From Membranipora membranacea (lineage: Eukaryota; Bryozoa; Gymnolaemata; Cheilostomatida; Membraniporidae): DNA of 64,000 nt. Under the pieces are notes generated by a model that saw only the letters and a list, made by a program, of their open reading frames with translations, was not told the origin of the DNA and made no database searches. Positions 1-59,757 of the stretch are shown here, in pieces. How positions within the stretch are numbered: position 1 is the first letter of the stretch; every line of letters starts with the position of its first letter. The stretch lies in assembly GCA_914767715.1 (NCBI GenBank), contig OU612069.1:15249387-15313386 (forward strand), written 5' to 3'. Made by a program: the position numbers and the translations under genes.

Positions 1-1102
1 GTCTTGTTGTATAAACTATACTATACTATACTACTGAATGACCTTATCAGGTTAGCGCAGGTGTCAAATTTAAGTCCTTGAGAAAACTTGCTTAATTAAA
101 TCTGAAAAGATATTTCAATAATAACACATTTCGATGATCAGTCACTAGTACTGTGAGGAATGTTCTTTTATAGTTTTGTTATTAAGCAAGGGATACAAGT
201 ATTGTACCGTTAACATTCAAGTTTTAAACACAGGGTTACTTTCCTTCCAATTCATCAAAGACAGCACTTTCAATCTCTGTGCGGTAATCTAAGTTGTCTT
301 CTGCTGCAAAATACTATGCTCTGTGCCCAGTGAGCCAACCCAATGAAGCAAAAATCACATAATTTTGTCAAATTAACTATACAGTAATAGATAGAGAAAT
401 AACAAGATGTCAGGACAGAAATAGCTGTGAACTATATGTCCGGTTAGCTTGTTATTACTGCATCTCTCCAGGGCCACTGATCATTGTTACCAAATATTGA
501 GAGAAATATCAGTGGCTGATCAACACAACCTTGTGTTTTGTTTTACTTTGTCTACACATTTGCATACATTATTACGAAACCATTTTAACCATGCATCAAA
601 GCGATCACATCTCTGTCATAGTTATTTTGATCATCTTGTTTGTAAGTTGTATTTAGGTTAACTTATTCTTCTTTTGCTTTATTTATTTCTCAAACTGTGA
701 GTCCCTGTTTTCTTGTGAATAGATTCTGATTTAATGTTCCATCAAATATTTTTGTTGGTCACTTATAAATTGATGGTATGCAAGAAGAGCTATTCTTAAA
801 ACTTTGTGAAGTAACATGTAATAGAAGTAAGCTATTAATATGTAGTTTTATTACAATTCAATCTAGAAGTGAAAAGTTATACTATTTGAATTTCATAAAA
901 CTGTTAATTGTTACAATATCAGTAAGCTTTAATCAAAAACAGAACTTTAAGCAGCTTAAGATAAAATATAAGTATATACATTCAATTCTTAGTAACTCAT
1001 TGGCTTCTCAATAAGTGCTCTCACATTTGCTACACCTCTCCTCATTGACGAGTCGAAGTTGTTGCCTCATGTTCCGAGCCCTCAATCACCCATCCATCTT
1101 TA
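1..1102. other. 3' flank of peptide gene copy a; no gene seen
   Basis: This stretch lies downstream of the minus-strand gene at 1103-2419. Positions about 449-1100 are conserved in block A' and, more weakly, in blocks D (28655-29200) and G (58085-58430). Short open frames recur in the copies only because the DNA is duplicated. They show no splice or domain support, so I treat this as 3' untranslated and flanking sequence. Confidence 0.6.
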
Positions 1103-2419
1103 TCATCTCTTATATCCCTTATATCTCTTATAGCCATAATAGGCATTATAGCCATATCGCTTTTTTAAAGAAGCCGCTCTCTTCTAAATAACAGAACAAA
1201 TGAATGTGAAGCTGCTTCACACAAATCAAGATATATACTATTGCATGTATATTAGGCAATTAATTAATTCATTCATTCAATTAATGTAGCTTGAGTACCA
1301 TCATACTGGATGAGGCTACATAAATTATGGGCAGGTATAATTGGGTAACTCATACTAAATTGGCTCTAACAATGACAGATTACAGATATTCATGTCCCAT
1401 CCTTAATAGTAGACTGCACCCATTTGCAGGTACAACATGGATGTGTGCTTCAGCATATCTAGGGAAACTGTTTACAATTTTTGTTTTCTCGTTAATGATT
1501 TTTAAGAAGATAACTTTGTCCCCTTGCAACAGATCCATTTTACCACATCAGTTGTGAAAAAAAGAATTTAAATAGCCTCAATTTTATATAATTACAAATG
1601 AGGAATAATGTCTCACCACAAGGAAAATATAAATACTTCAAATATTAGTTACTCTTACCGCAGGTTCATCCTCATCAGCGCTGCAGTAGACACTCGTACA
1701 AACAGCACATGAGTTGCTTGTTTGATCAGAGCATGGCCCAACACACTCCTCACACCCTGTAGCCATCTCTCCCTCCAGTCCTCTCTCAAATCCTCTGTCA
1801 ATTCCTCTCTTCAGTCCCAGTCCTCTGCCCAGTCCTCTCTCTAGTCCTCTACCATATCCTCTCTCCATCTCATCAATGATATCCCTTGCCAGCGCATGAT
1901 TTCCTTTTAGCTGTGCTGTGAGATGAAACACACAAAGAAAGTCTTTAGTTCCATGAAGTCAAAAAAGGTTTATGTACGTAGATAACACAACAAAATCAAC
2001 AATCGCATAATTAAATAAGACAATGATGTATAAGTTTTTACTTGATTCTTTGGCGAAAATAAAGTTTTCACAGATAATTAGTTGACAGCAGCGCCAGAAT
2101 TAAATTTTGATCTTGTTTCTGACAACTAATGGGAAATTTGCAAATGTCTTTAGGAATCATCTGTGCTTAGTGGAATCATCGACATAGTGGGCACTAACTA
2201 GTGGGATGAATCCGTATAGCATTCTCACCCTTTTCAAAATAAATTGAGATACTGATAGCTGAGCTAGAAGACAATAAACGACTCATAATTTTTCGGTTTA
2301 TCACGGTTAACAACAAATCCTAGCCTGACAACCGCCAGATTTCTAATGTCACTAAATCACTCACCTGATAAGCACGGTAACAGTACGCAGGAAACAAGAA
2401 AAACTTTGACGACCAGCAT
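1103..2419 (-). CDS. Small secreted Cys-rich / Tyr-Gly-tailed prepropeptide, copy a (intact)
   Basis: Three exons on the minus strand join in phase: 2419-2365, 1915-1659 and 1183-1103, giving 130 residues. Exon 1 encodes a signal peptide (MLVVKVFLVSCVLLPCLSG). Exon 2 starts AQLKGNHALARDIIDEMERG, continues with Arg-Gly tetrapeptide repeats of the RGLE/RGLG/RGID/RGFE type, then a six-cysteine motif C-x2-C-x3-C-x7-C-x2-C-x4-C and an acidic stretch ADEDE. Exon 3 adds KRAASLKK and a basic aromatic tail RYGYNAYYGYKRYKGYKR. Donors are GTGAGT and GTAAGA; acceptors end CAG and TTTAG. If exon 2 read through its donor, translation would stop soon after, at 1638. The family is unknown to me. Secretion and cleavage at the dibasic sites are inferred from sequence. 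Confidence 0.75.
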
Positions 2420-2484: not shown

Positions 2485-2492
2485 CTTTTATA
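2485..2492 (-). promoter_or_regulatory. TATA box of peptide gene copy a
   Basis: TATAAAAG on the minus strand lies 66 bases upstream of the start codon. The same box at the same distance occurs in copies b (6534-6541) and g (59823-59830). Copy e has a one-base-shorter version near 35733. Confidence 0.75.
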
Positions 2493-2944: not shown

Positions 2945-3002
2945 TATAGCGAAGAAACTTTTCAGTGAACAGCAAGACAAGAAAAACTCTAACGATTAGC
3001 AT
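2945..3002 (-). pseudogene. Relic signal-peptide exon (first of two)
   Basis: The minus strand reads ATG then LIVRVFLVLLFTEKF, clearly related to exon 1 of the peptide family, but no GT donor follows where the family has one. It lies upstream of copy a with decayed promoter-like sequence. The same relic exists in A' near 36190-36250. Confidence 0.5.
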
Positions 3003-3299: not shown

Positions 3300-3356
3300 A
3301 TAGCAAAGAAACTTTGCAGTGAACAGCAAGACAAGAAAAACTCTAACGATTAGCAT
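3300..3356 (-). pseudogene. Relic signal-peptide exon (second of two)
   Basis: The minus strand again reads MLIVRVFLVLLFTAKFL after an ATG at 3356 without a usable donor. Upstream sequence (3357-3450) resembles the family leader, including the run before ATG ending in 'taacgcaacaaca'. It appears to be a decayed tandem duplicate of promoter plus exon 1. Block G keeps a similar relic with its ATG at 60325. Confidence 0.5.
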
Positions 3357-6606: not shown

Positions 6607-8234
6607 ATGTTGATTGTTAAGAGTTTTTTCTTCTTTTCTGTTTACTGTTACCGTGAATTTCTGGTGAGTGATTTACATACATTACAGATCTAGGGATTGT
6701 TAGGCTGTCAACAATATAAGGCATTCATCCCAGTGAGCCAGTGACCACTATATGACCCTTAGTACAGTTGCTGATGACTGATAGCGCCCCTAAACAATAG
6801 TAAATCAATTCTGGAGCTGGAGTCCACCTGAATGTGTAAAAATTTTATGTTGTTTATGTTTCATCTTGTAAAAATGTGCTCTGTAGATTTACAAATTAAA
6901 GATGTTTTCCAAAGAATTGTTGAAAAATAAAACTTGGAACAGATTGTTCTGAAACAGAACTTCCAGCAGTTCACTGGCTGTTTTGGGGATCATTAATTAA
7001 AACTGGGGAGGAACAAATTTACCAGCCAATTTAAATATAAAGTGTGGTCAAGAAAAAGTTAGTTATTGCTGTGAGATAAGGATTTTTGCTTGCGAGTAGA
7101 TATTTGATCACAGTTTATTCAAAAGCAAACAACAATAGACATTGTTGACTTCATGGAAAAAATATTATTGTTTCTGTTTCATCTCACAGCACAGCTAAAG
7201 AGAAATTATGTACTGGCAAGGGATATTATTGACGAGATGGAGAGAGGATATGGTAGAGGATTGGAGAGAGGAATTGACAGAGGACTGGGCAGAGGTCGAT
7301 ATGGTAGAGGACTGGAGATGGCTACAGGGTGTGAGGAATGTGAAGGAGTATGCTCTGATCAAACAAGTACCTCTTGTGCTGTATGTACAACTGTCTACTG
7401 CAGCGCTGTAGAGGATGAAACTATGGTAAGAGTAACTGACGTTGTTAGAGTCGATAATTCACTTTGCCGTGAGACCGAATGCATCATGTGTGATTAGATG
7501 AGCTCAAGTGTATTATGGGTCCTTTGTCGCGGCCAATTGGGAAAGGTGCACTTGCCATAGTCTGCGGTCAGTGTTATCTTGTAAAAGATCAATAAATGTA
7601 TACACAACTTGTGCAATTATGGTCAGTTTCCTAAGAAGAGCTAAAACACGTATGATGGTAATTTGTGCAAACAAATGCAGCCTATTACTGAGGACATGTT
7701 GAGTTGTGAATTTGTGAAGAGGTGAAAGTGTTGAGTAACTCACTGCGGAAACTGAAAGTACCAATTGCCTGCACGTTGACATTAAAGGGCAACCAAGGTT
7801 TCGCAGCTATGCATTAATGGGTAGTATATAATGTGCTGGGCAGCATCAGCTTTGTGCATCATGCGATGCAAAACTAAAAGTAGTTACTGACTCTAAGCTG
7901 GGTAACACATCAGTTTAGGGGAGATTCCATGACATTGCTGTAATGATGATAGAGCACAGGCCAAATAATAACAGGGACAGGAAACTGCTCTGTGGTATGC
8001 TCTGTGGTATCATCTTTTAGCTGAGTTTAGTACCTGATGGAAGAAATGTTTCACAAGAATTCTGGCTGAATAAGCATCCAAATTATATTTTGTCTTTGTA
8101 CAATCTGTTATTAATCAATGAGAAGTTGTTTGAAACCTTGGTTGCCCTTTAAGGCTTACACTAACATGACGTGTATCTCTGAATTTTAGAGTCGATCTAT
8201 CAGATTTCCTCTTGTCTACCGCCCCTTACTATGA
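6607..8234 (+). pseudogene. Peptide family copy b, frameshifted in exon 1
   Basis: Three exon-like segments are seen: 6607-6663, 7190-7425 and 8190-8234. Exon 1 is 57 bases instead of the 55 found in intact copies, so the signal-peptide frame leaves the family frame and exon 2 is entered out of phase, meeting a stop almost at once. Exon 2 by itself is intact (236 bases, correct phase). It keeps the RG repeats (RGYGRGLERGIDRGLGRG) and all six cysteines. The putative exon 3 would end SRSIRFPLVYRPLL, much less Tyr/Gly-rich than in other copies, and is the least certain part. An expressed transcript with another first exon cannot be excluded. Confidence 0.55.
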
Positions 8235-11246: not shown

Positions 11247-14200
11247 CTAGACACAGGAATCTGTTTTCTCGTCATAGCTCTTATTATGAAGACATGTAGA
11301 AGTCAGCACCAGCTCAGCATAAGCGCCAGACTTTAGCTTTGTCGGGTAAACCAGTCTAAAAGATCCGAAAAAAAACAATTATTAATGTTAAATGAGTTAC
11401 ACCTGAAATCAGCATCACAATTAGACAGAATGTCAGGATCGAATATTAGCAAACCTTTTTGCAAGGCAGACAGAACATTTTTAAATTAAATTACGAATAT
11501 TAATAAATTAGAATCGCTTACGGGGGCATCCTACTGATGACTACTATGCTCAGAGTTGGATATCTGCTTCGATCAATGACTCTGTCTGTCAGTTTTTTCA
11601 TCAGCCCTTCTGGTATTTCTGTCACCGTACCATCATATGTGACATCAGTTGACCAGGTTACTGTCAGAGAATCATTGTCACAGCTCAGCTTAGCCTGAGA
11701 ACCAACCTTAGGACTGCAGTCTACAAAACATATGGCACTTTAGAGATGGCATTGTATCTACATAACTTGAGAGAAATAAAAATTTACCCTGCTTTCGATT
11801 TAATAACATAAATGTATCCAGTGCAGTGCAGTCCAGTACGTCAAGAAACTTATAGCAGTTGGCACATTTACTCCTTAATCAACCAGTAAAAATAAAAATC
11901 TAATCATCAAAGTGGGAGCACTTCTTGTGGTTTAGTTCAACTGCACTAAATGCACCAGGTTTATAGACAATGATTTCGCTTAGCCTCAAACCTAGCACAA
12001 TCTCAGAAAGATTTTAGTCTATATGGTGCAGCTGTTCTGGGTGACATGCAGTGTTGTCAGTATAGCCTGAAAATTTAGCAAGGCGCTCTTGATATGCCCC
12101 CTCAAATTATTTGTCTACAATCAAAGGTTTGTATACAGAGGAATCAATTTTATCAAATCAATATTACTAGGGGAGAATCTGTTAAATAAAGCACTTACAG
12201 TGTTGACATATTTCCTTTATCTGGTTGACATTTCCATTAGCTACGCTTGTCAGAGTAGATAGAGCAACCTTATCAGTCAGTACTGTACACTTTACATTAC
12301 CATACCTAGCAACAATATCCACTTCTCTCACCAACAGATAATCTACAATATTAATAACTCATAGTTAACACTTTGTGGAGTGTGACTGAGATGGGGTCTT
12401 TGCAGTTTCTGTTTGATGTTGGTAATCTTTCCGGTAAAAAGTCACTTCATTAGATTATAAAATTAGCTCTGCTTCACAAAAGAATCACATCTGTAGTTTG
12501 TACCTTTAATCTCTACTTTAAGAGAGCAGTTTGTACGCTTTCCGCTTATGCGATAATTGTAGACCCCCATAGGTAGTTCTAGTGTATGAGTAGTGCCATC
12601 TAGTGTGAGGTCAAGGGCTGATAACCCAGTAGAGGCTGAGACAACTCCTCTTATTACTTCTGGACACTCTTCTGGCTTAGATGTTTTACCTGATGAAACA
12701 GTCATAGTTGCAATTGTAGAAAATTTAAACACGAGTTGGAGATTGAAATGTGACAACTAGCGGATAGCTGTGTGGTCGAATGAACGAGAATAATTGGGCA
12801 GAAAATCTCCCGAAAAATTTGACAACTTGCAATAAGAGACTTATAGCTGAGATAATATCTGAGATTAATCATGATATTGACAGATTATTCTAGCTGAAAT
12901 AATATACTAGTTTTCAATGAAGCAGAATCCCTGGTGCATATGTACCAAGCGTAATGGTCCTGGATGACCGGGCCTAGGTTTAAAGTACTACAAGGTATGA
13001 CACATTGTATGGATGACACACAAAGGGTTGAAAACCATAGGCTATTTTATTATGATATTTACCGTTTTATACTTACCATTATTTATGACTGTAATAGTTG
13101 TTGTACAGTTGTTTCTATAAATCACATGACTACCCACAGCAAATCCAATCTGTTGGTCGAAAGAACTATCCACCAATGCTCTCTTCTCATCGGATGTTAC
13201 AAAAAAAGTCATGTTTCTGTCCCGACAAGGCGCTCTGGTGGTAGTTGTTGGTGTTGTCGGTGATGGTTTGGTTGTAGTTGGTGTGGGTGTATTTGTTGTT
13301 TGGGTAGTGATCGGTTTGGTTGTAGTTGTCCCTTTAGTTGTTCTTGGTGTGGTTGAAGTTGTTGGTCTTGTTGTAGTTGTCGGTTTGGTAGTTGTTGATT
13401 TGGTTGAAGTTGTCGGTGTGGTTGTAGTTGTTGGTGTGGTTGTAGTTGTTGGTGTGGTTGTAGTTGCTGGTGTGGTGGTAGTTGTTGGTTTGGTTGTAGT
13501 TGTCGATGTGGTTGTAGTTGCTGTAGTGGTTGCAGTTGTTGTTTTGGTAGTTGTTGGATTGGTTGAAGTTCTCCGTTTGGTTGTTGTTGGTTTGGTAGTT
13601 GTTGGTGTGGTTGTAGTTGTTGGTGTGGTTGTAGTTGTTGGTGTGGTTGTAGTTGTTGGTGTGGTTGTAGTTGTTGGTGTGGTAATCAGTTGGGGATCTA
13701 CAGAATTAAAAAGTAAATTTGTTGAAGAAAATTGAGACCCTTAGGTATATATATAATGAATAGTGTAGTCATGTAAGTGTCAAGAATGTCGGCAACGGTA
13801 CCAAATCATGTTCTTCTTTATAGTTTAATTAATTTGAGTTACCTTTTTGAAGTTTTTTCTTCGTGTGAGCGAAGCAATGTTTCATTTAACAATAATCAAG
13901 TAGGCATTTCATCTATCATGTGGTATATTGTTCAGACATAGTCGCAACGTTAGAATGGACAAGTATGTGCAGTAATGCCACTAAGATCAATATGAGACAA
14001 CAGGAAAAAGACAAAATTTATGATACTGTGTACTCACATTTGAACTGCTGGATTTGTCTGTGTTGTCCGACATACAGAGAGTGATTGGTGAGAAGAAGAG
14101 AGGTGGGTTGGTACAGACAGCCTGAGCAGAGATCCAGTGTGGTTACTCTGTCTGCGTTGATGTCTACTAGTCGGATCCTATTGTTGTCCCAGTCAGCAAC

Positions 14201-16216
14201 AAGTAGTGTCTGGTTACCTATGAACACAAGGCCACGTAGACTGTAGAATAGAGAGTTTAGGAGAGAGCTGTCTGTGTAGCCTGAGTAGCCTTGGTAGCCT
14301 GAGCCTGAGATCAGGGTGATTTTCTTCTCTTTATATGTGATACTGTAGAGAGCCTCCCATGTTGTGACATACAGGTTCCCATTGTCATCCTGTGTCAGCT
14401 GATAGATATAATAGAGAATGTTAGCCTTAACTAAAGTACCGACAGCCCCATTGTAAATATCCACTGTCCTCACAGCATTGTTATTCCGGTCAGTGACAAG
14501 AAGCTGCCCGTCATCATTCTTGTCTCTTATTACATACTTGGGACGGTTGAACAGACCGTGTTGACCTTCTGAGTCTCCTGCTGACTCACACTGTCCAGAG
14601 AACACTGAGGTGAGACCTGTGTGACGGGCGATCACTCTCAGACAGTGATTATAATAGTCAGCTACAACCACACGCTCATCTGTGATCTGTGTGAATCCAT
14701 ATATTTTGTTAAACAGAGCTTCAGATCCATTCCCCTCTCTGTATCCTTCCTCATGACTTCTCCCGGCAATGATGGTAGAGGACGTACCATTGCTAGACTT
14801 CAGTGATGCAATGTCCATGTAGACCACATTGTTTGGTATGAAGAGATCGATTTCCATTTGCCAAACATACCCATGGGTGTTGGTGAAGTTTGTAGCTGTA
14901 GATCTCTCTAACCTGTAAGATTGATATTATAACGTAAATGGACAATTTTGTTAAATTTAATCTCATTTTTCCAGTAAATCATTGAACAGGAATATTACAG
15001 ATAGTGTGAAGGAAATGTTTTAAAATTCTAATTCAAAAGAAAGGTGTTTCCGCATGTGCTAATTTTAAAAACAGTTGCTTTTAAGTTTACGGATTACAGT
15101 ATTTCTGTATTGATGATTTAGTTGCCGTGTATTAATATACTGGTGAATCACATATCACAAAAAATGCATCTTTCACAAATTGATTACCAATGAAGGAATG
15201 CAACTACTCCAAACAATCGAATTGAATAAACGCATGCATCAAATATACAAAAAAGTTTCCAATTCAATGAATTAAGCTGCGTTTACACGTCCGACAAATC
15301 GGCTAATAATAACAACTCAGACACAGATTATGAATCTGCTCTATAATCGTTGTCTGTCAACATGTCAACGATACGCTTTTTACACACTGTTCATTCCTAA
15401 CCGATTTCAACACAAACTTCCAACTCAACTTGTCTCTGATTGGCTAGTGAGACAACTAGTTAGTTTATTGGCTGAACCATTCATAATCGTGAAGATTTGT
15501 CGTTCACTTGTGACATTGTCACAAGTGAACGATTTTGAACAATACAGATTTAAACACCGATTTAAACACAGATTAACTGTTTACACGGTCAGTCAAATCG
15601 GTGACCTGTGTCGGAGTTGTTATTTTTAGCCGATTTTTCGCACATGTAAACGCAGCTTTACAAAAAAAACTAGCAGTTCAAACCAACAGTAATATAGTAT
15701 CACAACTCACAAGGAGTTCCGTTTTCGAACCGATACTTGCACATTATGACTAGTTTACTCAGCATGCCCTACCCTGAAAATTATATCTTTAAATTAGCGT
15801 TTTCTGGCGTGAGATTTTCAAGGCTTTTAAACTACTATTCATTATCACAGAGACTGTGTATAGACCTGACACTGGCGGAAAGTAACTCACCGATCAACTA
15901 GAGACTGCGTATCCTGATCCATACACCATCCAGTATTCAGAGTCACACACCATAACACCTGTCAAAATGTTATCCTTGAATAAATTTGTTACAAGAGAAA
16001 GTACCAAGGTACTTTAGATTCGGGAGAGAGGAGAATTCCCATAGAAAGGGAAAACTGATCCGCTATTGGAACCCAGTGCGCCATTATCGAATTAGATTCA
16101 TGTCAGGGCTAAAGCAAATCTCAATTACTACAATTATAACCTTTCAATTTCTATGCTTTCAATGGAATCACAACCCTCTTTGTACTTACAAGTAAAAGTG
16201 CAAGTCTCAGCTCCAT
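11247..16216 (-). CDS. Secreted NHL-propeller / mucin-linker multidomain protein (intact)
   Basis: Eight minus-strand exons join without phase conflict: 16216-16190, 15958-15891, 14912-14038, 13697-13077, 12689-12504, 12342-12199, 11720-11522 and 11355-11247. They encode 742 residues and a TAG stop. The start MELRLALLLVLWCVTLNTGW is a signal peptide. Exon 3 holds NHL-like beta-propeller blades (for example VVVADYYNHCLRVI and LLVADWDNNRIRLVDI). Exon 4 opens with an about 155-residue Thr/Pro-rich linker and then a roughly 50-residue domain (CRDRNMTFFVTSDEKRALVD...IYRNNCTTTITVINN). Exons 5-8 give further Cys-containing extracellular-looking sequence ending TCLHNKSYDEKTDSCV. NHL propellers usually bind ligands or proteins. 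A cell-surface or matrix role is inference, and the C-terminal domains are unrecognised. Confidence 0.8.
13230..13697 (-). repeat. Thr/Pro-rich coding tandem repeat (mucin-like linker)
   Basis: The minus strand repeats PTTTTT-type units of about 18 bases for roughly 156 codons without a stop, in frame with both neighbouring domains. Such stretches are usually O-glycosylated stalks. The complementary strand also stays open as a Val/Gly run, but that is a shadow. Confidence 0.75.
15275..15657. mobile_element. 383-bp MITE, TTA target duplication (Harbinger-type)
   Basis: Inverted termini begin AGCTGCGTTTACA and end TGTAAACGCAGCT, flanked by TTA on both sides (15272-15274 and 15658-15660). The C' copy at about 49578 lacks the element, confirming insertion after the block duplication. 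A TTA duplication fits the PIF/Harbinger superfamily. No transposase is encoded. Confidence 0.8.
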
Positions 16217-18890: not shown

Positions 18891-20168
18891 GATTTTTTTC
18901 AAATGGGTGCTTTATAACTGGAGCATTTTTACTTTTCCCAAGGGGGGATGTCTTATAAGTGAGGAATTACGGTACATACAGAGTTTGACTTTTGACCTTG
19001 AGCTGGACAAGCCAATCAAAAGCCCGGTGTATTGACACACCCACGCCCTCCCCGCCACGCCTACGGCATGTGGATCGGGCTGCGCCCGATCATTATGCTC
19101 ATCTCTAAAAAGTCAGTGAGTGAAATTGTTTAGAACATACGCCCCTGGTTATCGCTATCACATCACTATCACATCGCTCAAAATTATCACTCACTTGGTG
19201 TTTCAATTAGAGAAAGTCATTCCCAAATCTTTCACTCTGAATGTATATAGTTCCATCAAGTGACTGAGCGATCTGAAAGCGAGACCCCTAGCAGGTGTCG
19301 CTCACTCAGTGAGTGAGCGATAAGATTGCGATTTTGGCTGTTTCTAATTGAAAGTCCCCCCAGCTAGTCAAATATATAATATAATTGGCATATTTGTGTG
19401 TATTCATTTATTTCTTTCTGCAGCTAAGACAGTTTTGGATTACCCACATTCACTGTGCAGTGAACTGATTCAACTCTTCAATTCATTCATCTAAAAGATT
19501 CCACTGGTGAGTTTTTTTATATTATAATTTACAATGAATTATTTATGTACTATTACTCGAAAAACTTATCATGGGCACTGGGCAAATTTTACACCAACTT
19601 TTGCTGCCATAAATCTTAGATCTTATTACCTTTTTCTGGGCTTCAGACTAAGTGCTTTTTTCTCTTTAGAAGCATAAGGCCATGGGCTCCTCACATGCAA
19701 AATAGCCAAGTAGCATCGCACTAACCCAGATGCCCTAAAAACAAGTATTAAGATATAGCTAAGATCCATGGCAGCAAAATTTGGTGTAAAATTGAGTTTT
19801 GCAGGCACCTGTGGGTTTGATTCCCGTCCAGTGGTTTAGTGCCCCTCAAAAAACCACCACCAATCAACAAGAGAAGTTGTGTCTTTTGTTGGTTGCTGGT
19901 GGTTGGGGGGGGGGGGGGGCTGTTTGGTGGGCGCTCGACCACTGGTGGGGGACCAAACCTTCAACGGTACCAATGACTGTTATTTTGTACTCTTTGCATT
20001 TGTCAGAGCAGAGCTTTAGAATTCAAGGGCACCAAAAACGTAACAGTATCATTCAGGCCTATCAATAGACTCACGGATGTATTACCACTAGCGTTTTTGT
20101 GTAGTTACTGAATCAGACTTGAATACATAATCAAATAATAATCGTTGTTACGATGCATTGTTATTTAG

Positions 20169-20436: not shown

Positions 20437-22344
20437 CTGAACATAAAGGATGGCGGTGGCCTTGTGGCTGTCCCACAGTCTGTGAATAATTTATTATAGA
20501 GCGGTGTGAGTCCATCATAGAACTATATGTCGATCAGAAATTTCTACGTAAAGAAAATCACATAAATCTGTTTGTGGCTTTGTTATTCCGCAGTGTGATT
20601 GTAGAAAATCCTCTGTCATTATTTCCCTCCCAAAGCTCACAGCTATGAGTAAATTTTACTCCTAGCTGTGCGAGGATAGTTTGTATCACAGCAAACCGTT
20701 GATCAGGGAAAAAGCCAGAAAATATTTTGATATTCGTATAGAGCACTATGTAAAGCATAACAACAAAACAGTTATTCATGGGAGTAAGGGAAAGAATCAA
20801 TCAAAGTTGAGTGGTCTTGGTGTATTTAAACATAATAATATATAGTCTTGCATAATGCACTCTGCTTGTAATCTGATATGATCTAATCCAATTTTTTTTA
20901 TGTTTATGATCTATTTCATTATTGTCTATGAATTAAAATATTATATCTGTGTATCAGTCTGTGCTTGATAGGAGCAATGGAATACATTTATGGAAGTAGC
21001 ATCTATCTATCTTCTTTCTAGCATCAATGCTAAATCTTAAAAAGCTAACTCCTCACCATAGAATTATATTTTGTTCAACAGTCTATAGTGATTTGTTTAT
21101 ATGTTGCTACACAAATCCAATATGGCCGCCGGATACACATGCCTCCACAGGGAGTAAACATTGAGTCATAGCTCTAGGGGGATAACTCTATGGGCACAAT
21201 ATATTACCCACCGTATGGACGTATCTACTGAGCCTGTGACACAAGACAGAGAAAATGCTGATGGATAAAGTTTTTCTTGTTTTCTGTGTACTGTTACCGT
21301 GCATAGCAGGTGAGTAATTTACATACATCAGGAATCTAGCGGTTGTCAGGCTAGCAATTGTTGTTAATCGTGATAAACAGTAAATTTTTCAATTGTGTAT
21401 TGTCTTGTATGCTCAGCTATCAATATCTCAACTGATTTTGGAAAGGGTGAGAATTCTATATGGATTCATCCTGCTAGTTAGTTTCCACTATGTCGATGAT
21501 TCCACTCTGCACAGATGATTCCCAGAGACAATTGCGAATTTCCAGTTGTCAGAACCAAGGTCAAAAATTAATTATGGCTGAATGTCCGTGATGAAAATTT
21601 AGTTAAAAGTTATACAGCATTGTTACATTTAATTATACGATCGTTGATTTTGTTTTATTATCTTCTTGAGATAACCTGGTTGTATAATGTCTCGGAGTTA
21701 TTTAATATGATAAGCCTTCAGATAAACCAACAAAAAAATTAATGAAATTTACAAGATACAAGATACAGCTACAAAATTAACCTACCAAAAAAATTTAAAT
21801 GTGTTTCAAAAAATGATGGTTGAATGTGTTTTTTCACACGACAGCAAGGGATATCCTTTATGAATCCAAAAGAGCTGCTGGCTTTATAAGCAAAATGATA
21901 CAGCCAGTGTTGATGATAGATACAAGATGTGAGAAGTATGAGAAGGGGTATGCTCTGATCAGACAAGTACCAAGCAATGTGCTGTGTGTACTATTGTTTA
22001 CTGCAGCACTGATGAGGATGAAACTGTGGTAAGAGTTACCAATGTCTATGTTGTTGATAATGAAATCAGATTTACAGATTTATTTATAATCCACTGTTAA
22101 AATTCTCTGAGGTATTAAATAAAACAGTTAGCGAGCTCAAATCCATGATGAGACACTATCCCTTAAGCATCCTTTTGTCTTTAGATGAGGTTGAAGGTAT
22201 TATGAATCCATCTGACGCGGAAAAATTGTATTGGTAAATATGTAGCTAGAGCAGCTGTTGCGATGCAAGTTGTCTCTCCAAAACTCATGAGATATTTATA
22301 TGATTCTCGCAATGATTGTGAACAGTTTCCCCAGATAAGCTAAA

Positions 22345-24512: not shown

Positions 24513-25680
24513 TTAAACTTTCATCTTCTTTGTTATTTAGGAGAGAGCAGCCTTAAAAAGAGTATTCTACACAGGTTATGGATATGGTGTGCCAGGCAAT
24601 GGAGGCAGAAAAAACGCAGGGGTAGGAAAAAGAGGCTATTACATTGGCTAGTCGAGAAAAAGGAGGCGTAGAGAATATAAAGCCCCTTATTGAAAAATCT
24701 CATAGAAAAGCGTAATTCCTTTTTATTGGGCGCAAAATTATTGTTCTTGCAGATGATTTTTCAATTGACATGACTGTTCAAATATTCTCAGTGACTTATA
24801 TGGTTTTCTCGTTATCTCCCCCTACATTTTTTATATTTGATGCAGAAACCATCACAAATTGATTGAAAGTTATTGTCCAGGCTTGGTGGTTGAATTACTA
24901 TTTAATCCACGAAATGAATGCAAAAAATCCTGAATTTCATAAAAAATGATGAAATGTTGGCAAAAAATTATCTTTTAACCAGATGACTCAATTAAAATGC
25001 ACTTCTACATATGCTAGAATCGTCAAATTTTTTTGCTAACCACATTATGACGATATCAATATATGATTCATTTTGGGTCACTCTATCGGTATTTCCCTTC
25101 ATTTAATGCAGCATTTCTTAAAATTTATTCTCAGTTTTCTCATATAAACTTTTGACGCAAGCTGACATGGTACATTTATCCTCTATTGTATAGAACTAGG
25201 CACAGCGTATAAAGGATTCCTTTGTTTTCCAAATGTTGAAACAGTGAAAAGCATTGAATCGTATAGGGGCCTCACACTCAGCGCAATACAATGTAACAAA
25301 ATTAATATCACAATAAAGATTTGATGTGAACCTGTAGTCTTGTCTTCTAACATGACATTACTAAAATGATAACAGATTATGAACATCGAATGCTGACTTA
25401 GATTATTGTTCCTAAAATGAAGATGGAACCCTTATTTAATTGTGAAAGCAGAATATAAAAATTACTTAGGTATGATAGATAAACCAGTAATTTTAGAAAC
25501 CTCCACATGACAGAGAATATTAGGATTCTAAAACAGGGACCGGCAGAGTTTTTCAATATTTTACCTTAGTCATTTCAGTACACATGAATGGGGGTTAATG
25601 TGATCACAGTACACTCTTCATTTTTTAATACCTGTAAGATAATTTGTCTAGTCTTATGAGCTTGCCTCTTCCACTTTCAG

Positions 25681-28654: not shown

Positions 28655-30508
28655 AAGCATCTCTCCAAGGCCACTAATCTTTGTAACCAATTATTGAGAG
28701 AAATAACAGTGGGTTGTGTCCAATTTGTTTTTCTTTCTCTTTGTTTATGCATATTTTATTGCTGAACCACTTTAGCATCACATCTTTGTCATGGTTATCT
28801 TGATCATCTAGTTTGCAAGTTGTTTTCAAGTTAACATATTTTATTTTCGCTTAATTTAGTTCTCAAACTGTCAGTTTCTGATTTCTTGTGAATAGATTTT
28901 GATATGATATTCCACCAAATATTTTTGTTGGTCACTTATAAATTGATGGTATGAAAGAAGAGCTATGCTTAAAACTTCATGAAGTAACATGTATTAAATG
29001 TAAGTTATTAATGTAGTTTTATTAAATTCAATCTTGAAGGTAAAAATTACATTATTTCAGTAACATAATACTGTCATTTGATACAATACCAGTAAGCTAT
29101 AATCAAATACAGAACATCAGAAGCTAAAATAAAATATTAGTATACATATATATTCAATTCTTAGTAACTCATTGGCTCACATTAGCTACACATCTCTTCA
29201 TTGACGACTCATCTATAGTATCCGCCATACCGAACACGCCTTTTTAAGGAGGGAGCATAACCTCTTGTTAAAGCGACTCTCTTCTAAACAACAGATCGAA
29301 TGAATGAATGAATGAATGAAAGGTACTTCACTCTATTCAAGTGATATATTATACTATTGCATGTATATTGCTGATCCAAAGAGCATTAATTAAAATTTGT
29401 AGCCAAAGTGCCATCACAAGGAATAAGCTGTGGCATAAATTATGGGCGGGTACTCATTCTAAATGACATAACATATCATAATAGTGAAAATCCTTATGTC
29501 ATTATGGAGGTAATTGGTATTTTAGTCTGAATTATGAATGAGTAGACATTTTAAGACTCTTTACGATTAATGTCCCAACACTTACTTATAAGCTGCATTC
29601 ATTTGCAGTTAAAAATTGATATGTGCTTCAGTGCATCTAGGAAAACTGTCTATACATTCCTTGCAAGAATTTTATAATTATCTCATTTGATTTTAAATAA
29701 GACTAAATTAAAATAAGATAATCAAAATCAAGATAAATTTGTCCCCTTGCAACAGCTGCATTTTCCGACATGTTAAAAACAGAATTTGAATATATATATG
29801 ATGACACATAAAGAATAATGTCTCACCACAAAGTAAGTTATAAACATTATTTACATCAGTTACTCTTACCGCAGTTTCCTCCTCCTCATCAGCACTGCAG
29901 TACAAAGTCATACAAACTGCACATGAGGTACTTGTTTGATCAGAGCATACCCCATGACACTCCTCACAACATGAAGCCATCTCTCTCTCCAGTCCTCTGT
30001 CGAGTCCTCTCTCCAGTCCTCTACCATACCACAATGCTGTGACATAAAACGTAAAAAGAAAATATTTGTTCTTCTTTAAACTCAACCAACTCAAGTTTTA
30101 TTCATTCTTGTATAGACTTTGAATGAATATCTACTCTGAATGATTTGAATTGATATTTTGGCAAGAAAAAAGGTGTTCACATAATTATTTAGTTGCATCC
30201 AGCCTGCTTGATGCAATGCTACATACTACTTTCAACGATGCTCTGGGATAATTTGACAAAGAAAATTACTGTTTTATAAACTCAAGAAAGTTTTTTTTTC
30301 GTTTTAGTGCCTTATATGTATATTTTTTATTTATTTGCATTTGCCATCATCCGAAGATGTTTTCCCTGAAGTGCAAAACAAAAATAAGAAACGGCCAATA
30401 CAAAGACAAGGGAATAAATTTGCTAATTCTAACTGATTGAGTCTGCTAGAAAACAGCAACCCTTCCTCTTTATGCTTTTTTGCGTAAATCACTCACCTGA
30501 TGTGCATG
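28655..30508. repeat. Block D: diverged relative of block A
   Basis: Similar to positions 460-2370 of block A, including the 3' flank, all downstream exons and the intron landmarks of the peptide gene. Its far side is displaced to 33139-33250 by the foldback element at 30517-33138. Confidence 0.75.
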
Positions 30509-33181
30509 GTAACATTCATAGACTTAATATACTACCTAGACAGGCCAATTGCATTCAATACTGTCCCACTTAAATAGCACGACATGATGCAATTAGTTTG
30601 TGCTGTGAGCCATAGTTTGCTATATTATACCATTCAGTGGAATAATGTGAAAAATCAAGGGATGCTGGGCACGATATCAGCCTCTGTTCAGCCCCTTATT
30701 ATTCAAACACAAAGAAAATTGGTGAGTGTATGTAAAAGACCTTTCCGCACGAGCTGGTATTCATAATTTGCCTAACCAGAACTTTATATGATAGGAAGAA
30801 ATCATTAGCCAATAAACATTGAATACAGCCATTTCCCTCAGCACTTCAGTCACTACTATAAAAATGTAAAGAATACCTATAACACAAGATCACAAATATG
30901 TTGTTGGATGAGCCAGATCTAAGCACCAGCACCACCACCATCTTCATTTTTTCCTTAAAACTCTTCGTAGTTGTGACTAAACACAACCAGTTTGCTCAAA
31001 TTGGTTTACTAATTTTAATGTCGCTTCGCAAGGAAGAATAGATCTGTGCTGTTAAATGAGTATGCAAACTACTGAGAGCTGTTGTTCCTGAGTACGTATG
31101 ATGAAGCTAGAGTATGTAACAATGACTTAAAATTATTATACTTCAGTACTGTAGTCAAAATCTAATGGCCTTTACCGTGGCCGAACTTAATTTTGCCTTT
31201 GCCAGTAAGGTTCTTTGTGTTTATAAATGTGATATCGGCGTCAACAGTGAATGTCTATTGCCTCCCCGACCTTTACACAGAAACAGCAGCATGAAAAAAA
31301 AAGTTATTACTGAGATGTCTAAAACACTTTTTAACAAAATTGCGTCCGACGAAGACCATCCTCTTTTTAGTCGTGTTGTTTTCAGCTGTGCAAAGGTATC
31401 CTCTCGTCTAAATACCATCTATTGCCCACCAAAGTGCAGGACACGAAAGCTTTTTCCATACTACATGTCAGCTCACAACAGAATTTGAAATGTTCATTTT
31501 CATTTTCAATCTTATCACCTGATGATACAATGATTGTTATAATAAGCCAAACCTAACCAGAACATGTCATGATCTGTGAAAATGGAACTACATGTAATGA
31601 TGAAACTCCAGAGGAAAGAGGATAGAAGCAGTGACTCCAATAATTTCCAAAACTGGAAAATGAAATACCGTGGCTAAACTTTTTTTTGCCGATGCCGGTA
31701 AGGTTCTTTGAGTTTTTGAGTTTATCAATATGATATCGGCGTCAACAGCGAATGTCAATTCGAGTGATATTTGAAAAGTACAATTCCTGTAATGATCATT
31801 ATTATTATTCTTATTGTTACATTCTCATTATTCTTATTCAATAGTTAATAATTCCCATACAAACTATTTCAGCCTCGATCTAGGTGGAGCCCTGCAGACA
31901 TCTCCATACTTCTCAAGATAGTGCAGCACACTCAACAGTCATTTCTGTATAATTGACAATGTCTCCTTACAGAGGGATTTTTTAGTCATTGCCAAAGGGA
32001 TTGTTGCTGCTCAATAATTCAAAAACTTCTCAGGCTGTCTAAATAAAGGGTTCAGAAACGTTATTTTGGGGCTCAGACTGGGTTCTATACTAATAGCCTT
32101 TATTCATACTAAGCCTCAGCTCATACCATCAAAAATTTATTGCAAGCTGCGGAGGTTTGTGCTTGTGAGCAGCTGTGATGCATATGAGCACACAACTCTC
32201 GGCTGAGTCAAACAAGAATGCTGGTGATCATTGGGCCGGCATTTGTTTTTCAGTCTTGGAAATTATTAGAATCACTGCTTCCATCCTTTTTCCTCTGTAG
32301 TTTCATTATTACAGTAGTTCCATTTTTCTGTAATAACTACTTTTTTTCACACTGCTGCTTCTGTGAATAGGTCAAGGAAGCAATTGACATTCAATGATGA
32401 CGCCGATATCATATTGATAAACTCAAAGAACCTTACCGGCATTGGCAAAATTAAGTTTGGCCACGGTAAAGGCCATTAGATTTTGACTGCAGTACTGAAT
32501 TATAATAATTTAAAGTTATTTTCACATACTCTAGCGTCATCATACATACTCAGGAGCAACAGATATCTGTAGTTTACATACTCAATTTACAGCACAGATC
32601 TATTATTCCTTGTGGAGCAACAATCAAATTTGCAATCAAATTTGAGCTGACTGGTTGTGTTTAGTCACAACTAGGAATAATTTTGAAGAAAAAATCAATG
32701 ATGGTGGTGGTGATTAGATCTGGCCCATCCAACAAAATATTTGTGATATTGTGCTATAGGTATTCTTTACATTTTTATAGTGGTGATGGAAGTGCTGAGG
32801 GTAAATGGCTGTATTTATTTCAATGTTTATTGGCCAATGATTGTATCTTATCATAAAAAGTTCCGGTTCTGGGGACAAATTATGAATACCATCATGTGCG
32901 GAAAGGTCGTTTACATACACTCACCAATTTTCTATGTGTTTGAATAATAAGGGGCTGGACAGGGGCTGATATCATGCCCAGCGTCCCTTGATTTTTCACA
33001 TTGTTTCACTGAATGGTATATACTAAACTATGGCTCACAGCACAAACTAATTACCTCATGTTGTGCTATTTAAGTGGGACATATTATGATCAGTGAAGCA
33101 TAGGCATTGCCCTGTCTAGGTAGTATATTAAGTCTATGGTAACATTACACATAAAACAAGACTGACTCTAACGATCAGCAT
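29209..33181 (-). pseudogene. Peptide family copy d, signal exon split by a transposon
   Basis: Exon 2 (30036-29870) and exon 3 (29283-29209) are intact and in phase. They encode a shorter RG-repeat (YGRGLERGLDRGLERE), the six cysteines (CCEECHGVCSDQTSTSCAVC with a further Cys in front) and a tail SLKRRVRYGGYYR. Exon 1 is cut in two: its start side lies at 33147-33181 and its donor side at 30497-30508, with a 2622-bp foldback element between. An ATG just inside the element/exon junction leaves only MLPCTS of the signal core, so secretion is probably lost. Its promoter TATA is also degraded (ATAAACG). Confidence 0.65.
30517..33138. mobile_element. 2.6-kb foldback element with long inverted arms
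   Basis: The ends read CATAGACTTAATATACTACC and its complement and are flanked by an 8-base duplication GTAACATT (30509-30516 and 33139-33146). The arms, about 30517-31668 and 32255-33138, pair over some 890 bases. The left arm holds an extra 260 bases (about 31318-31578). A sub-segment near 31670-31765 repeats part of the left arm. The open frame at 31165-31488 spans arm and insert and resembles nothing I know. Similar termini at 57930-57964 show a family. Confidence 0.85.
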
Positions 33182-33252: not shown

Positions 33253-36200
33253 GGTCTTGTTGTATAAACTATACTATACTATACTACTGAATGACCTTAT
33301 CAGGTTAGCGCAGGTGTCGAATTTAAGTCCTTGAGCATACTTGTTTAATTAAATCTGAAAAGATATTTCAATAATAACACATTTCGATGATCAGTCACTA
33401 GTACTGTGAGGAATGTTCTTTTATAGTTTTGTTATTCAGCAAGGGATACAAGTATTGTACCATTAACATTCAAGTTTTAAACACACGGTTACTTTCCTAC
33501 CAATTCATCAAAGACAGCACTTTCAATCTCTGTGCGGTAATCTAAGTTGTCTTCTGCTGCAAAATACTATGCTCTGTGCCCAGTGAGCCAACCCAATGAA
33601 GCAAAAATCACATAATTATGTTAAATTAACTATACAGTAATAGATAGAGAAATAACAAGATGTCAGGACAGAAATAGCTGTGAACTATATGTCCGGTTAG
33701 CTTGTTATTACTGCATCTCTCCAGGGCCACTGATCTTTGTTATCAAATATTGGGAGAAATATCAGTGGCTTATCAACACAACCTTGTGTTTTGTTTTACT
33801 TTCTCTACACATTTGCATACATTATTACGAAACCATTTTAACCATGCATCAAAGCGATCACATCTCTGTCATAGTTATTTTGATCATCTAGTTTGTAAGT
33901 TGTATTTAGGTTAACTTATTCTTTTTTTGCTTTATTTATTTCTCAAACTGTGAGTCCCTGTTTTCTTGTGAATAGATTCTGATATAATGTTCCATCAAAT
34001 ATTTTTGTTGGTCACTTATAAATTGATGGTATGCAAGAAGAGCTATTCTTAAAACTTTGTGAAGTAACATGTAATAGAAGTAAGCTATTAATATGTAGTT
34101 TTATTACAATTCAATCTAGAAGTGAAAAGTTATACTATTTGAATTTCATAAAACTGGTAATTGATACAATATCAGTAAGCTTTAATCAAAAACAGAACTT
34201 TAAGCAGCTTAAGATAAAATATAAGTATATACATTCAATTCTTAGTAACTCATTGGCTTCTCAATAAGTGCTCTCACATTTGCTACACCTCTCCTCATTG
34301 ACGAGTCAAAGTTGTTGCCTCATGCTCCGAGCCCTCAATCACCAATCCATCTTTATCATCTCTTATATCCCTTATATCTCTTATAGCCATAATAGGCATT
34401 ATAGCCATATCGCTTTTTTAAAGAAGGCGCTCTCTTCTAAATAACAGAACAAATGAATGTGAAGCTGCTTCACACAAATCAAGATATATACTATTGCATG
34501 TATATTAGGCAATTAATTAATTCATTCATTCAATTGATGTAGCTTGAGTACCATCATACTGGATGAGGCTACATAAATTATGGGCAGGTATAATTGGGTA
34601 ACTCATACTAAATTGGCTCTAACAATGACAGATTACAGATATTCATGTCCCATCCTTAATAGTAGACTGCACCCATTTGCAGGTACAACATGGATGTGTG
34701 CTTCAGCATATCTAGGGAAACTGTTTACAATTTTTGTTTTCTCGTTAATGATTTTTAAGAAGATAACTTTGTCCCCTTGCAACAGATCCATTTTCCCACA
34801 TCAGTTGTGAAAAAAAGAATTTAAATAGCCTCAATCTTATCTAATTACAAATGAGGAATAATCTCTCACCACAAGGGAAATATAAATACTTCAAATATTA
34901 GTTACTCTTACCGCAAGTTCATCCTCATCAGCGCTGCAGTAGACACTCGTACAAACAGCACATGAGTTGCTTCTTTGATCAGAGCATGGCCCAATACACT
35001 CCTCACACCCTGTAGCCATCTCTCCCTCCAGTCCTCTCTCCAATCCTCTGTCAATTCCTCTCTTCAGTCCCAGTCCTCTGCCCAGTCCTCTCTCTAGTCC
35101 TCTACCATATCCTCTCTCCATCTCATCAATGATATCCCTTGCCAGCGCATGATTTCCCTTTAGCTGTGCTGTGAGATGAAACACACAAAAAAAGTCTTTT
35201 GTTCCATGAAGTCAAAAAAGGTTTATGTACGTAGATAACACAACAAAATCAACAATCGCATAATTAAATAAGACAATGTTGTATAAGTTTTTACTTGATT
35301 CTTTGGCGAAAATAAAGTTTTCACAGATAATTAGTTGACAGCAGCGCCAGAATTAAATTTTGATCTTGTTTCTGACAACTAATGGGAAATTTGCAAATGT
35401 CTTTAGGAATCATCTGTGCTTAGTGGAATCATCGACATAGTGGGCACTAACTAGTGGGATGAATCCGTATAGCATTCTCACCCTTTTCAAAATAAATTGA
35501 GATACTGATAGCTGAGCATACAAGACAATAAACAACACATAATTTTTCGGTTTATCACGGTTAAGTCCTAGCCTGACAACCGCCAGATTTCTAATGTCAC
35601 TAAATCACTCACCTGATAAGCACGGTAACAGTACACAGGAAACAACAAAAACTTTGACGACCAGCATTTTCTCCTCGTTGTGTTACAGCTGAGTAGTTGT
35701 GTCCAGATAGTGTGTAAGAGATTGTGTCTTAGCTTTATAGAATGGTCTAATTCCTATTCCTTTACTACTCAGTTACACTTGAATTACTCTACCCTCTTAT
35801 CCTTGTCAGGTAAACGTGGATGTCAAATTTATATTCTTGAGAAAACTCGCCTAATTAATTCTGAAATGATAATTTCAGTATTAACACTTTCCAATCTATC
35901 TTCGCATAAAGCACCTCATCCGCTGGTGCATATCTTCGACCTAATAATTTCCAGAAGTGGCCTTAAAACAGCTCATTACAAACTTCAAGACTAGAATAAC
36001 ACCTATCCATTATCAACAACAAAAACATGGGCCAATATGTAAACAGGCAAAATTATTCTCTTGAAAATAACTTGCTTGGATGATTCTGAAATCATAATTA
36101 TCATCAAGATTTCATTTCTCATGCAACAATATAGGTTCATCCATGACCTCATTCATCCATAATCACTATCATTATGATTCCAAAATGATAATTATAGCGA

Positions 36201-53321: not shown

Positions 53322-54888
53322 ATGCTGATGGTTAAAGTTTTTTTTTGTTTTCTGTGTACTGTTACCGTGAATAGCAAGTGATTAAATTACATACATCAGG
53401 AATCTAGCGGTTGACAGTCTAGGAATTGTTGTAAATCGGATAAACAGTAAAAATTTCAATTGTGTATTGTCTTGTATGCTCAGCTTGCAATATCTCAATT
53501 GATTTTGGAAAGGGTGAGAATTCTATATGGATTCATCCTGCTAGTTAGTTTCCACTATGTCGATGATTCCACTCCGCACAGATGATCCCCAGAGACAATT
53601 GCGAATTTCCAGTTGTCAGAACCAAGGTCAAAAATTAATTATGGCTAAATGTCCGTGAAAAACTTTACTTGTTGCCGAAAATTTAATTAAAAGATATACA
53701 ACATTGTTACATTTAATTATACAATCGTTGATTTTGCTTTATTATCTTCTTACGGTAACCTGGTTGTACAATGTCTCGGAGTTATTTAATATGATAAGCC
53801 TTCAGATACACCAACAAAATATAAATGAAATTTACAAGATACAAGATACAGCTACAAAATTAACCTACCAAAAAAAATTAAATGTGTTTCAAGAATGATG
53901 GTTGAATGTGTTTATTTTACACGACAGCAAGGGATATCCTTGATGAATCCAAGAGAGCTGCTGGCTTTATAAGCAAAAGGATACAGCCAGTGTTGATGAT
54001 AGAAATAGATACAAGATGTGAGAAGTATGAGAAGGGGTATGCTCTGATCAGACAAGTACCAAACAATGTGCTGTGTGTACTATTGTTTACTGCAGCACTG
54101 ATGAGGATGAAACTGTGGTAAGAATTGCCAATGTCTATGTTGTTGATAATGAAATCAGATTTACAGATTTATTTATAATCCACTGTTAAAATACCCTGAG
54201 GTATTAAATAAAACAGTTAGCGAGCTCAAATCCATGATGAGACACTATCCCTTAAGCGTCCTTTTGTCTTTAGATGAGGTTGAAGGTATTATGAATCCAT
54301 CTGAAGTGGAAAATTTGTACTTGGCAAATATGCAGCCAGATGAGCTGTTGCAATGCAAATTTTCTTCTTAAAAATCATGAGATAATTATATAATTCTCGC
54401 AATGATTGTGATCAATTTCCCCAGATAAGCTAAAACAGACATTCATGTAATACATGCGAATGAAGGCGGCATAATTACTAAGGAAATTTTGGGACATAAT
54501 TTACTCACTGACAGCTGAAAATGAAATTTCTGATAACCTCCCCGCAAACATCGGGATGTTCACTATTAGATTGTGAATCTCTGATCGTTAGAGCCAATTT
54601 AGTATGAGTACCTCATGTTTTTCACCGCCAATTTTTTCTGGATCACCACACCTATTTCCTTCTGATGGTACTAATCGAATTGAATTAATACATGTTTTAT
54701 CAATAAGATATATACTTGCAGCATTATATCACATGATTAATCTGAAACGCTTTAATTTTCATGTTCTTTGTTATTTAAGAGAGACCAGTCATAAAAAGAC
54801 TATTCTACACAGGTTATGGACATGGTGTGCCGGCCAGTCGAGGCAGGATAACGCAGGGCTAGGAACAAGAGGCTATTACATTGGTTAG
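53322..54888 (+). pseudogene. Peptide family copy f, degraded
   Basis: This is the counterpart of copy c in block C'. Exon 1 (from 53322) has an extra T in its T-run, so the signal frame reaches TGA, and the donor has changed from GTGAGT to GTGATT. Exon 2 (53928-54117) carries the same pre-cysteine frameshift as copy c. Exon 3 (about 54780-54888) still shows LFYTGYGHGVP, but its acceptor is shifted and a later indel breaks the frame. It lacks the P-like, LINE and TTAA insertions seen in copy c. Confidence 0.65.
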
Positions 54889-58429: not shown

Positions 58430-59757
58430 TCATCTCTTATATCCGCCATGATAAACTCCGCGATATGGACGATAGTAATATCGCTTTTTTAATGAGGGCG
58501 CTCTCTTCTAAATAAAAAACAAATGAATGTAAAGCTGCTTCAAACTGAACTATACTATTGCATGTAAATCTGTCAACGATAGAGCATAAATCAATATATG
58601 GAGCTTGAGTAATATCATACGGAATTAGGTTACATAAATTATCGGCAGGTATAGTTGAGTAACTCATACTAAATTGGCTGTCACAATGAGAGATTACACA
58701 AACGTCTAGTGAAAATAACAATGTTGGTGTCGATTTTAAGCCTGAGCTATGAATGAGTAATCACTTTTAGATCTTTACGAGTCATGTGCCGTCACATCAT
58801 TTGTGCATCCATTTGCAGGTACAACAAGGATGTGTGCTTCAGCATATCTAGGGAAACTGTTTACAATTTTTGCAAGTATCTAATAATTATCTCATTAATG
58901 ATTTTTAAGAAGATAACTTTGTCCCCTTGCAATAGCTGCATTTTCCCACATCAGTTGTGAAAAAAAGAATTTTAATAGCTATAGCTATAGAATAATGTCT
59001 AACCACAAAGTAAGTTATAAACATTATCAACATCAGTTACTCTTACCGCAGTTTCCTCCTCCTCATCAGCGCTGCAGTAGACAAAGCGTACAAACAGCAC
59101 ATGAGTTGCTTGTTTGATCAGAGCATGGCCCAACACACTCCTCACACCCTGTAGCCATCTCTCCCTCCAGTCATCTCTCCAATCCTCTGTCAATTCCTCT
59201 CTTCAGTCCCAGTCCTCTGCCCAGTCCTCTCTCTAGTCCTCTACCAAACCTTACCTTTGGGTGTGTTGTGAGATGGAACACACAAAAAAAGTCTTTTGTT
59301 CCATGAAGTCAAAAAAGGTTTATGTACGTAGATAACAAAACAAAATCAACAATCGCATAATTAAATAAGACAATGTTGTATATGTTTTTACTTGATTCTT
59401 TGGCAAAAATAAAGTTTTCACAGATAATTAGTTGACACCAATTTTGATCTTGTTTCTGACAACTAATGGGAAATTTGCAAATGTCTCTAGGAATCGTCTG
59501 TGCATAGTGGAATCATCGACATAGTGGGCACTAACTAGTGGGATGAATCCGTATAGCATTCTCACCCTTTTCGAAATAAATTGAGATACTGATAGCTGAG
59601 CATACAAGACAATAAACGCCTCATAATTTTTCGGTTTATCACGGTTAACAACAAGTCCTAGCCTGACAACCGCCAGATTTCTAATGTCACTAAATCACTC
59701 ACCTGATAAGCACGGTAACAGTACACAGGAAACAAGAAAAACTTTGACGACCGGCAT
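58430..59757 (-). pseudogene. Peptide family copy g, broken in exon 2
   Basis: Exon 1 (59757-59703) and exon 3 (58507-58430) are intact. The tail reads KRAPSLKKRYYYRPYRGVYH then GGYKR, a distinct sequence in the same format. Exon 2 (about 59250-59050) has lost its CAG acceptor (CTCACAAC), has TGA where the family has GGA in the RG repeat, and has one extra base before the last cysteine. TATA (59823-59830) and the palindrome (59952-59969) are kept, so transcription may continue. Confidence 0.7.

Follow-up and report, generated by a model that had tools for sequence, protein, structure and literature searches.

A family of small three-exon genes is clustered in the 64-kb stretch of DNA analysed here (the window) and in its flanks, and the best reading of the sequence is that it is a real birth-and-death family of secreted prepropeptides that would release cationic Tyr/Gly-rich peptides. 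A whole-genome search places the window at C5:15249387-15313386 in an 18-contig assembly of 339,339,785 bases. The earlier note had counted seven copies in 64 kb, and all seven (a to g) were recovered by tblastn and blastn. Five further copies (h, i, j, k, and l) were found beside the window by tblastn of its flanks, which brings the family to 12 copies in approximately 118 kb (about 15,221,384 to 15,339,151 on C5). The flanks were examined out to C5:15170000 and 15389999 (220 kb altogether), and the rest of this region gave only five weak tblastn matches (E 0.08 to 0.47).

When exon 2 DNA was searched against the whole genome, at least 12 places were matched, representing at least 11 distinct copies (copy i was counted twice), all of them within C5:15.228-15.338 Mb. 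The copies are present in both orientations and are flanked by dispersed repeats, and foldback and reverse-transcriptase insertions lie nearby, as might be expected if the exons had travelled passively within a mobile element, each family copy being an element copy. We consider this extremely improbable, since the copies matched in the whole-genome DNA search are confined to one 110-kb stretch of one contig and are not dispersed. An alignment of the seven window copies spans the promoter, exons, introns, and 3' flank past exon 3, and the comparisons taken together indicate that the copies are homologous DNA with a constrained exon 2, beyond chance. In broad terms, a segmental duplication of 32 to 35 kb makes up the window, its pieces being 78 to 98% alike: copies a and e, apparent duplicates offset by 33,253 bases, are 97.9% alike over 3.66 kb, and copies c and f are mutual counterparts (91.8%). 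Copy g is a mosaic, a/e-like through to the fifth cysteine and d-like beyond.

The architecture of the family is clearest in copy a, which lies on the minus strand and splices in frame to give 130 codons plus a stop from exons of 55, 257, and 81 nt. Exon 1 (2365..2419) is the signal exon MLVVKVFLVSCVLLPCLS, closing in phase 1 at the donor G/GTGAGT; exon 2 (1659..1915) runs from phase 1 to phase 0 and carries the RG repeat, the six-Cys part, and an acidic stretch; exon 3 (1103..1183) encodes the tail KRAASLKKRYGYNAYYGYKRYKGYKR and the stop behind Lys-Arg. Both introns are of the GT..AG type, with donors GTGAGT and GTAAGA, acceptors ending in CACAG and TTTAG, and phases 1 and then 0. The product thus reads, in order, a hydrophobic start, a short RDIIDEM stretch, the RG repeat, CEECVGPCSDQTSNSCAVCTSVYC, the acidic stretch, and the tail. 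This three-exon gene had been described in the earlier note, whose exon coordinates were all reproduced, as was its 55-base signal exon with a signal-like N-terminus. The best 10-residue hydropathy of the N-terminus is 2.61 to 3.05 in all five copies scored (a, e, g, c, and the d fragment), and the value of copy a is reached by 20 of the 843 ATG stretches in the window, the family's own included. A six-Cys array of the form C-x2-C-x3-C-x8-C-x2-C-x4-C is present in a, b, d, e, and h. In addition, copy a has a TATAAA at 2487..2492 (minus strand), and exact TATAAA motifs stand at the equal distance in b (6534), e (35739), and g (59830), 72 or 73 bases 5' of the ATG in these four copies; c, d, and f have no exact TATAAA at this distance. 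An AATAAA lies 3' of exon 3 of copy a (847..852, minus strand), and the motif recurs behind exon 3 within the shared context TAATAAAACTACAT in a, e (34105), g (58175), and d (29023).

Only a and e are whole among the 12 copies, and both are free of lesions across the three exons, as had been claimed for them; nine others (b, c, d, f, g, i, j, k, and l) are broken. The exons of copy e, on the minus strand, are at 35613..35667, 34912..35168, and 34356..34436. Copy b (plus strand) has a two-base shift relative to a in exon 1 (6607..6663) and an open exon 2 (7190..7425); a tail was searched for, and none was convincing. In copy c (plus strand), exon 1 (21255..21309) is open, exon 2 (21845..22028) has a two-base shift common to f, and exon 3 (24541..24651) encodes the tail ERAALKRVFYTGYGYGVPGNGGRKNAGVGKRGYYIG and a stop; its intron 2 holds a reverse-transcriptase fragment (22784-23164, minus strand). 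Copy d (minus strand) retains an exon 1 fragment (33138..33181) cut after 44 nt at a break identical to that of copy k, followed by an exon 2 (29870..30036) and an exon 3 (29209..29283; tail KRVALTRGYAPSLKRRVRYGGYYR and stop) that are both open and in phase. A foldback (an inverted repeat at 30517-33138, with arms 85% alike over about 820 bases) starts exactly at this exon 1 break, and a second foldback is found at 55901-57879 (arms 87% alike over about 550 bases). Copy f (plus strand) has a one-base shift in exon 1 (53322..53377) with a TGA in the frame of the other copies, the two-base shift common to c in exon 2 (53928..54117), and a tail remnant (54779..54862) whose acceptor AG has become AA. 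In copy g (minus strand), exon 1 (59703..59757) is followed by a damaged exon 2 (59047..59265), whose acceptor reads AA in place of AG and which carries a 5' deletion, a one-base shift, and a stop in frame, and by an open exon 3 (58430..58507) encoding the tail KRAPSLKKRYYYRPYRGVYHGGYKR and a stop. The tails of d and g are indeed open, as previously proposed, in genes of which one lacks a full exon 1 and the other has a damaged exon 2.

Among the copies outside the window, h is diverged, yet it retains the signal exon, the six-Cys exon, and the splice phases: its exon 1 of 64 nt and exon 2 of 182 nt are open and in phase and encode MLLVKVFLIICVLIPCISCGL and then AKYVADESRAAGLINKRIQSVFESGRATECEECEGVCSDHTSESCVVCMTVYCSTGSDKAT, with no convincing tail within 2.9 kb. 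Copy i is missing the start of exon 1; in its open exon 2 the RG repeat is longer and the Cys part has lost six codons, and its tail is KRAALKSRIGGGGVR (48 nt). Copy j has a TGA in exon 1, an open exon 2 in which the second cysteine has become Tyr, and an open tail. Copy k is d-like, sharing the exon 1 break of d, with a shifted exon 2 and a tail two codons shorter, while copy l combines an open exon 1 with a stop in exon 2 and an open tail that ends early. A TGA occurs at one shared codon of the signal exon in b (6607-6663), f (53322-53377), j (C5:15240882), and the truncated i (C5:15227319), which belong to different subtypes; it may reflect shared origin or gene conversion. Orphan signal-exon starts reading MLIVRVFLV, with later exons absent, were also observed on the minus strand at 2976-3002, 3330-3356, 36224-36250, 36579-36605, and 60296-60325.

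The distribution of changes in exon 2 indicates that purifying selection acts on it. Between a and b, 17.7 of 53.0 synonymous sites have changed versus 22.3 of 181.0 non-synonymous sites (0.333 versus 0.123; Fisher p=6e-4 over 78 codons). The a-e pair, with one synonymous and four non-synonymous changes, shows no purifying signal and is uninformative. A second test covered the 29 codons of the six-Cys core in six of the 12 copies (a, b, d, h, j, and l, of which j and l are themselves broken at other places), leaving out e (near-identical to a), c and f (shifted), g and k (broken), and i (six-codon loss). Omega was below 1 in all 15 pairs and p was below 0.05 in six of them; the pairs that were not significant include a-d (p=0.46), a-h (p=0.11), and a-l (p=1.0). 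Core differences numbered 55, 73, and 123 at the three codon positions, counts that are pooled and not independent. Moreover, exon 2 is 21 nt shorter in b, 75 nt shorter in h, and 90 nt shorter in d than in a, all multiples of three. At E<=1e-20 and a length of at least 300 bases, the matches between a and b include one comprising the promoter and exon 1 and one comprising exon 2 with its acceptor and 50 bases before it; at looser settings, there is a single a-b alignment (64% over 1369 bases) that takes in the introns. An AlphaFold2 model of exon 2 was uninformative (mean pLDDT 46). Unspliced read-through of exon 2 was considered as a different ending of the product: the next stop comes after VRVTNI in a and e and later in b and d, so its position is not conserved, which makes an ending by intron retention less likely.

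A recognisable exon 3 is present in ten of the 12 copies, and the AG acceptor is kept in nine of these, being lost in f. Behind a conserved start, the tails differ and fall into four types: a/e/g (SLKKR and then Tyr-rich), d/k, c/j/f/l (KR and then FYTGYG[YH]GVP), and i (GGGG). Within the window, their lengths including the stop are 75 (d), 78 (g), 81 (a and e), 84 (the f remnant), and 111 nt (c). Thus, of the range of 45 to 111 bases given for the third exon in the earlier note, the upper end stands with copy c, while the lower does not hold in the window, where the shortest is 75 nt (copy i, outside it, has 48). With tail exons of 48-111 nt, its point that ordinary gene calling could miss the third exon is well taken, and annotation easily misses short secreted peptides with tiny last exons of this kind. 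A dibasic site (LKKR, LKRR, or LKR) follows the KR or ER start in eight of the ten tails, f having IKR and i LKSR; the KR-type site said to precede the tail holds in a, d, e, and g, and c starts with ERAALKR. None of the ten tails contains Cys. The net charge is -7 or -8 for the six-Cys part in all three copies scored (a, b, and d) and +6 to +10 for the tail in all four scored (a, g, d, and c).

The tail may also differ from its surroundings in the pace of change. Relative to near flanks, exon 3 carries more changes in a-g (21/78 versus 17/154, p=0.004), g-d (32/75 versus 19/88, p=0.004), and e-g (p=0.009); the difference is not significant in a-d (36/75 versus 36/105, p=0.09), and a-e gives p=1. 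When the mature part is compared with longer flanks, the values are p=0.04 (a-g), p=8e-5 (a-d), p=1e-4 (g-d), and p=1 (a-e). These p values are uncorrected, the pairs overlap in sharing sequences, copy d is difficult to align in its flanks and tail, and noncoding windows at the homology edges show divergence equal to that of the tail core, so the comparisons modestly suggest that the tails of a, g, and d change faster than nearby noncoding DNA. In the a-g pair, the prepro part shows non-synonymous change of 0.05 versus synonymous change of 0.30, and the mature part 0.41 (15.7/38.5) versus 0.35 (3.3/9.5), where the sites are too few for a test; the c-j and d-k tails have no non-synonymous excess. 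The c-j tail, with 7/108 changes versus 43 to 47% in 150-base flanks, might appear to be a conserved island, and it was not counted as one because about 30 bases before it and 50 to 60 after it are conserved too and the c sequence beyond is unrelated. In simulated neutral drift (20,000 runs, each putting 17 changes into 36 bases with the a tail taken as ancestor), open products whose Y/G content equalled or exceeded that of g arose at 2 per 10,000. From the tail-flank comparisons and this simulation, it is moderately supported that tail composition has been kept while the sequence changed. With nine of 12 copies broken and only two whole, the family could also be taken as a decaying one, that is, recent duplicates of one former secreted gene that are mostly dead and whose tail has little present function. 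This appears quite unlikely to us, as a and e are lesion-free across three exons and an open Y/G-rich tail is so rarely kept in the neutral simulation.

The composition of the tail (in copy a, 7 of 26 residues are Tyr and 10 are basic) might alternatively point to a structural or adhesive matrix protein, whose Tyr/Gly/Lys-rich tail would undergo crosslinking or modification of the kind known from DOPA adhesives and other extracellular matrices, with the six-Cys part serving as an anchor; the family tail may resemble small mussel foot proteins. We regard such a role as rather improbable, given that the tail is very short, fast-changing, and located behind likely cleavage sites, and that the searches gave no Pfam match and no solved-structure sequence at E below 1.

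The same processing sites would fit a regulatory, neuropeptide-like prohormone whose products are released by dibasic cleavage, amidated at Gly-Lys-Arg in c-type tails, and act as receptor ligands. The classical amidation context is G-K-R. Several KR sites are present in a, e, and the c-type tails, and GRK is found in c. GKR occurs in the tails of c and j only (two of the four c-type tails) and is absent from those of a, e, g, d, k, i, f, and l. On the side of the enzymes, six convertases and one carboxypeptidase are reported for the sponge Amphimedon in the available text of PMC6850559, and amidating enzymes are known from Porifera according to that of PMC9525235, both of which count in favour of such a prohormone. 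On the other hand, the latter text reports that no amidated peptide was found in the sponge Ephydatia fluviatilis (PMC9525235), which counts against it. Furthermore, the GKR carriers c and j have other exons broken, the precursor is without a repeated identical peptide, and the mature sequences differ strongly between copies. Such strong differences between copies are unlike usual receptor ligands. On balance, we find this explanation unlikely. A peptide signalling or recognition family, framed for a sponge host without neurons, would have one conserved precursor whose last exon is diversified between neighbours to give variable, partly amidated Tyr/Gly peptides; we hold this to be decidedly doubtful.

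Relatives of the family were sought in several collections. A protein-database search with the spliced product of copy a gave no match at E<=10, and a six-row profile gave only five protein matches (E 0.38 to 0.75), all on GLERG repeats. No Pfam family was matched, and no relatives were found in viral_contigs or genome_contigs. Four PDB sequences (E 1 to 4.9, none below E 1) match the RG stretch only, and the best PDB profile match, TFIIH p44 (E=0.031), lies over the cysteine stretch and was discounted as a chance agreement in spacing. In the literature search, no paper was found to contain any of four family peptide strings, and none of the papers retrieved, as far as their available text goes, was recognised as describing the family. 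The family is thus apparently an orphan, and its designation as undescribed holds for the protein, Pfam, and PDB-sequence searches; these cover mostly microbial collections, so other animals may have relatives.

Several other features share the window. An NHL-repeat gene (14021-14926, minus strand) has at least 100 protein relatives, with a top match of 58% identity over 91%, and its duplicate (48397-49252, minus strand) is split between two frames, the scanned part being without a Pfam match. An open stretch of 232 codons at 13045-13740 (minus strand) is threonine/proline-rich and mucin-like and contains 18-base repeats. Paired open frames at 12466-12756 and 46761-47147 (both minus strand) share MTVSSG, STGL, and LDGTTHTLELPMGVYN and are possibly another small family; the former was scanned and had no Pfam match. 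EGF and ephrin-receptor-like open stretches (37298-37567 and 40383-40691, minus strand) are probably exons of larger genes, and a THAP-domain open stretch is found at 20131-20433 (plus strand). The NHL, EGF, ephrin-receptor-like, THAP, and reverse-transcriptase domains in the window point to animal DNA, and a sponge was taken as its likely source.

Returning to the prepropeptide family, we propose that its genes would be transcribed into precursors in which exon 1 provides a signal peptide, exon 2 an acidic six-Cys pro-domain with a net charge of about -7 and a spacer (RG repeats or, in the other subtype, a DES..AAG..IQ stretch), and exon 3 the cationic Tyr/Gly-rich tail delimited by Lys-Arg. 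Within the secretory pathway, cleavage at these KR sites by a proprotein convertase would release the tail, which may then act as a linear cationic peptide of the antimicrobial type in host defence, and duplication, gene conversion, and gene death would generate the variety of tails. Tentatively, and with slightly less than even confidence, we therefore favour clustered, lineage-restricted prepropeptide genes whose tail, freed at KR sites, is most likely a host-defence effector, with regulatory and matrix roles as serious but less probable rivals; defence is placed first because of the charge opposition between pro-domain and tail, the likeness to myticalins and CRP-I, and the processing enzymes reported in sponge. 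If expressed, the family would offer a compact 12-copy locus of about 118 kb in which to follow duplication, gene conversion, death, and peptide change, and would supply new cationic peptides for testing.

Several known systems resemble the family most closely in their organisation; protein-database, profile, and Pfam searches gave no sequence relation to myticalins or any known antimicrobial peptide family. Few short secreted peptides are described from sponges, and the available text of PMC9004410 presents phoenixin and nesfatin as the first neuropeptides identified in sponges; their precursors are likewise secreted and have dibasic sites, and phoenixin mostly has three exons with phase-1 introns, but they are broadly conserved across animals, whereas the present family is local and fast-evolving, with no relatives found. 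The nlp-29 cluster and caenacins of C. elegans are also clustered, recently expanded, glycine-/tyrosine-rich secreted peptides, for which signs of adaptive evolution and induced expression are reported; they are nematode genes, and the RG repeat and six-Cys domain are not described in the available text (PMC2453101). CRP-I of Mytilus, as far as described in the accessible part of PMC10138031, shares clustered genes and pseudogenes, a conserved signal/pro-region, a variable mature part, a dibasic site, and six cysteines, but its C-C-CC-C-C knottin array belongs to the mature peptide, whereas the C-x2-C-x3-C-x8-C-x2-C-x4-C array here precedes the cleavage site. In the mussel myticalins, the available text of PMC5577615 describes a conserved signal peptide, an acidic pro-region, a Lys-Arg site, pseudogenes, and taxonomic restriction, together with a hypervariable cationic peptide that is Arg/Pro/Tyr-rich in subfamily A. 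That description is without the six-Cys pro-domain of the present family, and the order of parts differs as well: the mature myticalin is central with an acidic C-terminal extension, while the predicted peptide here is C-terminal and encoded on its own exon.
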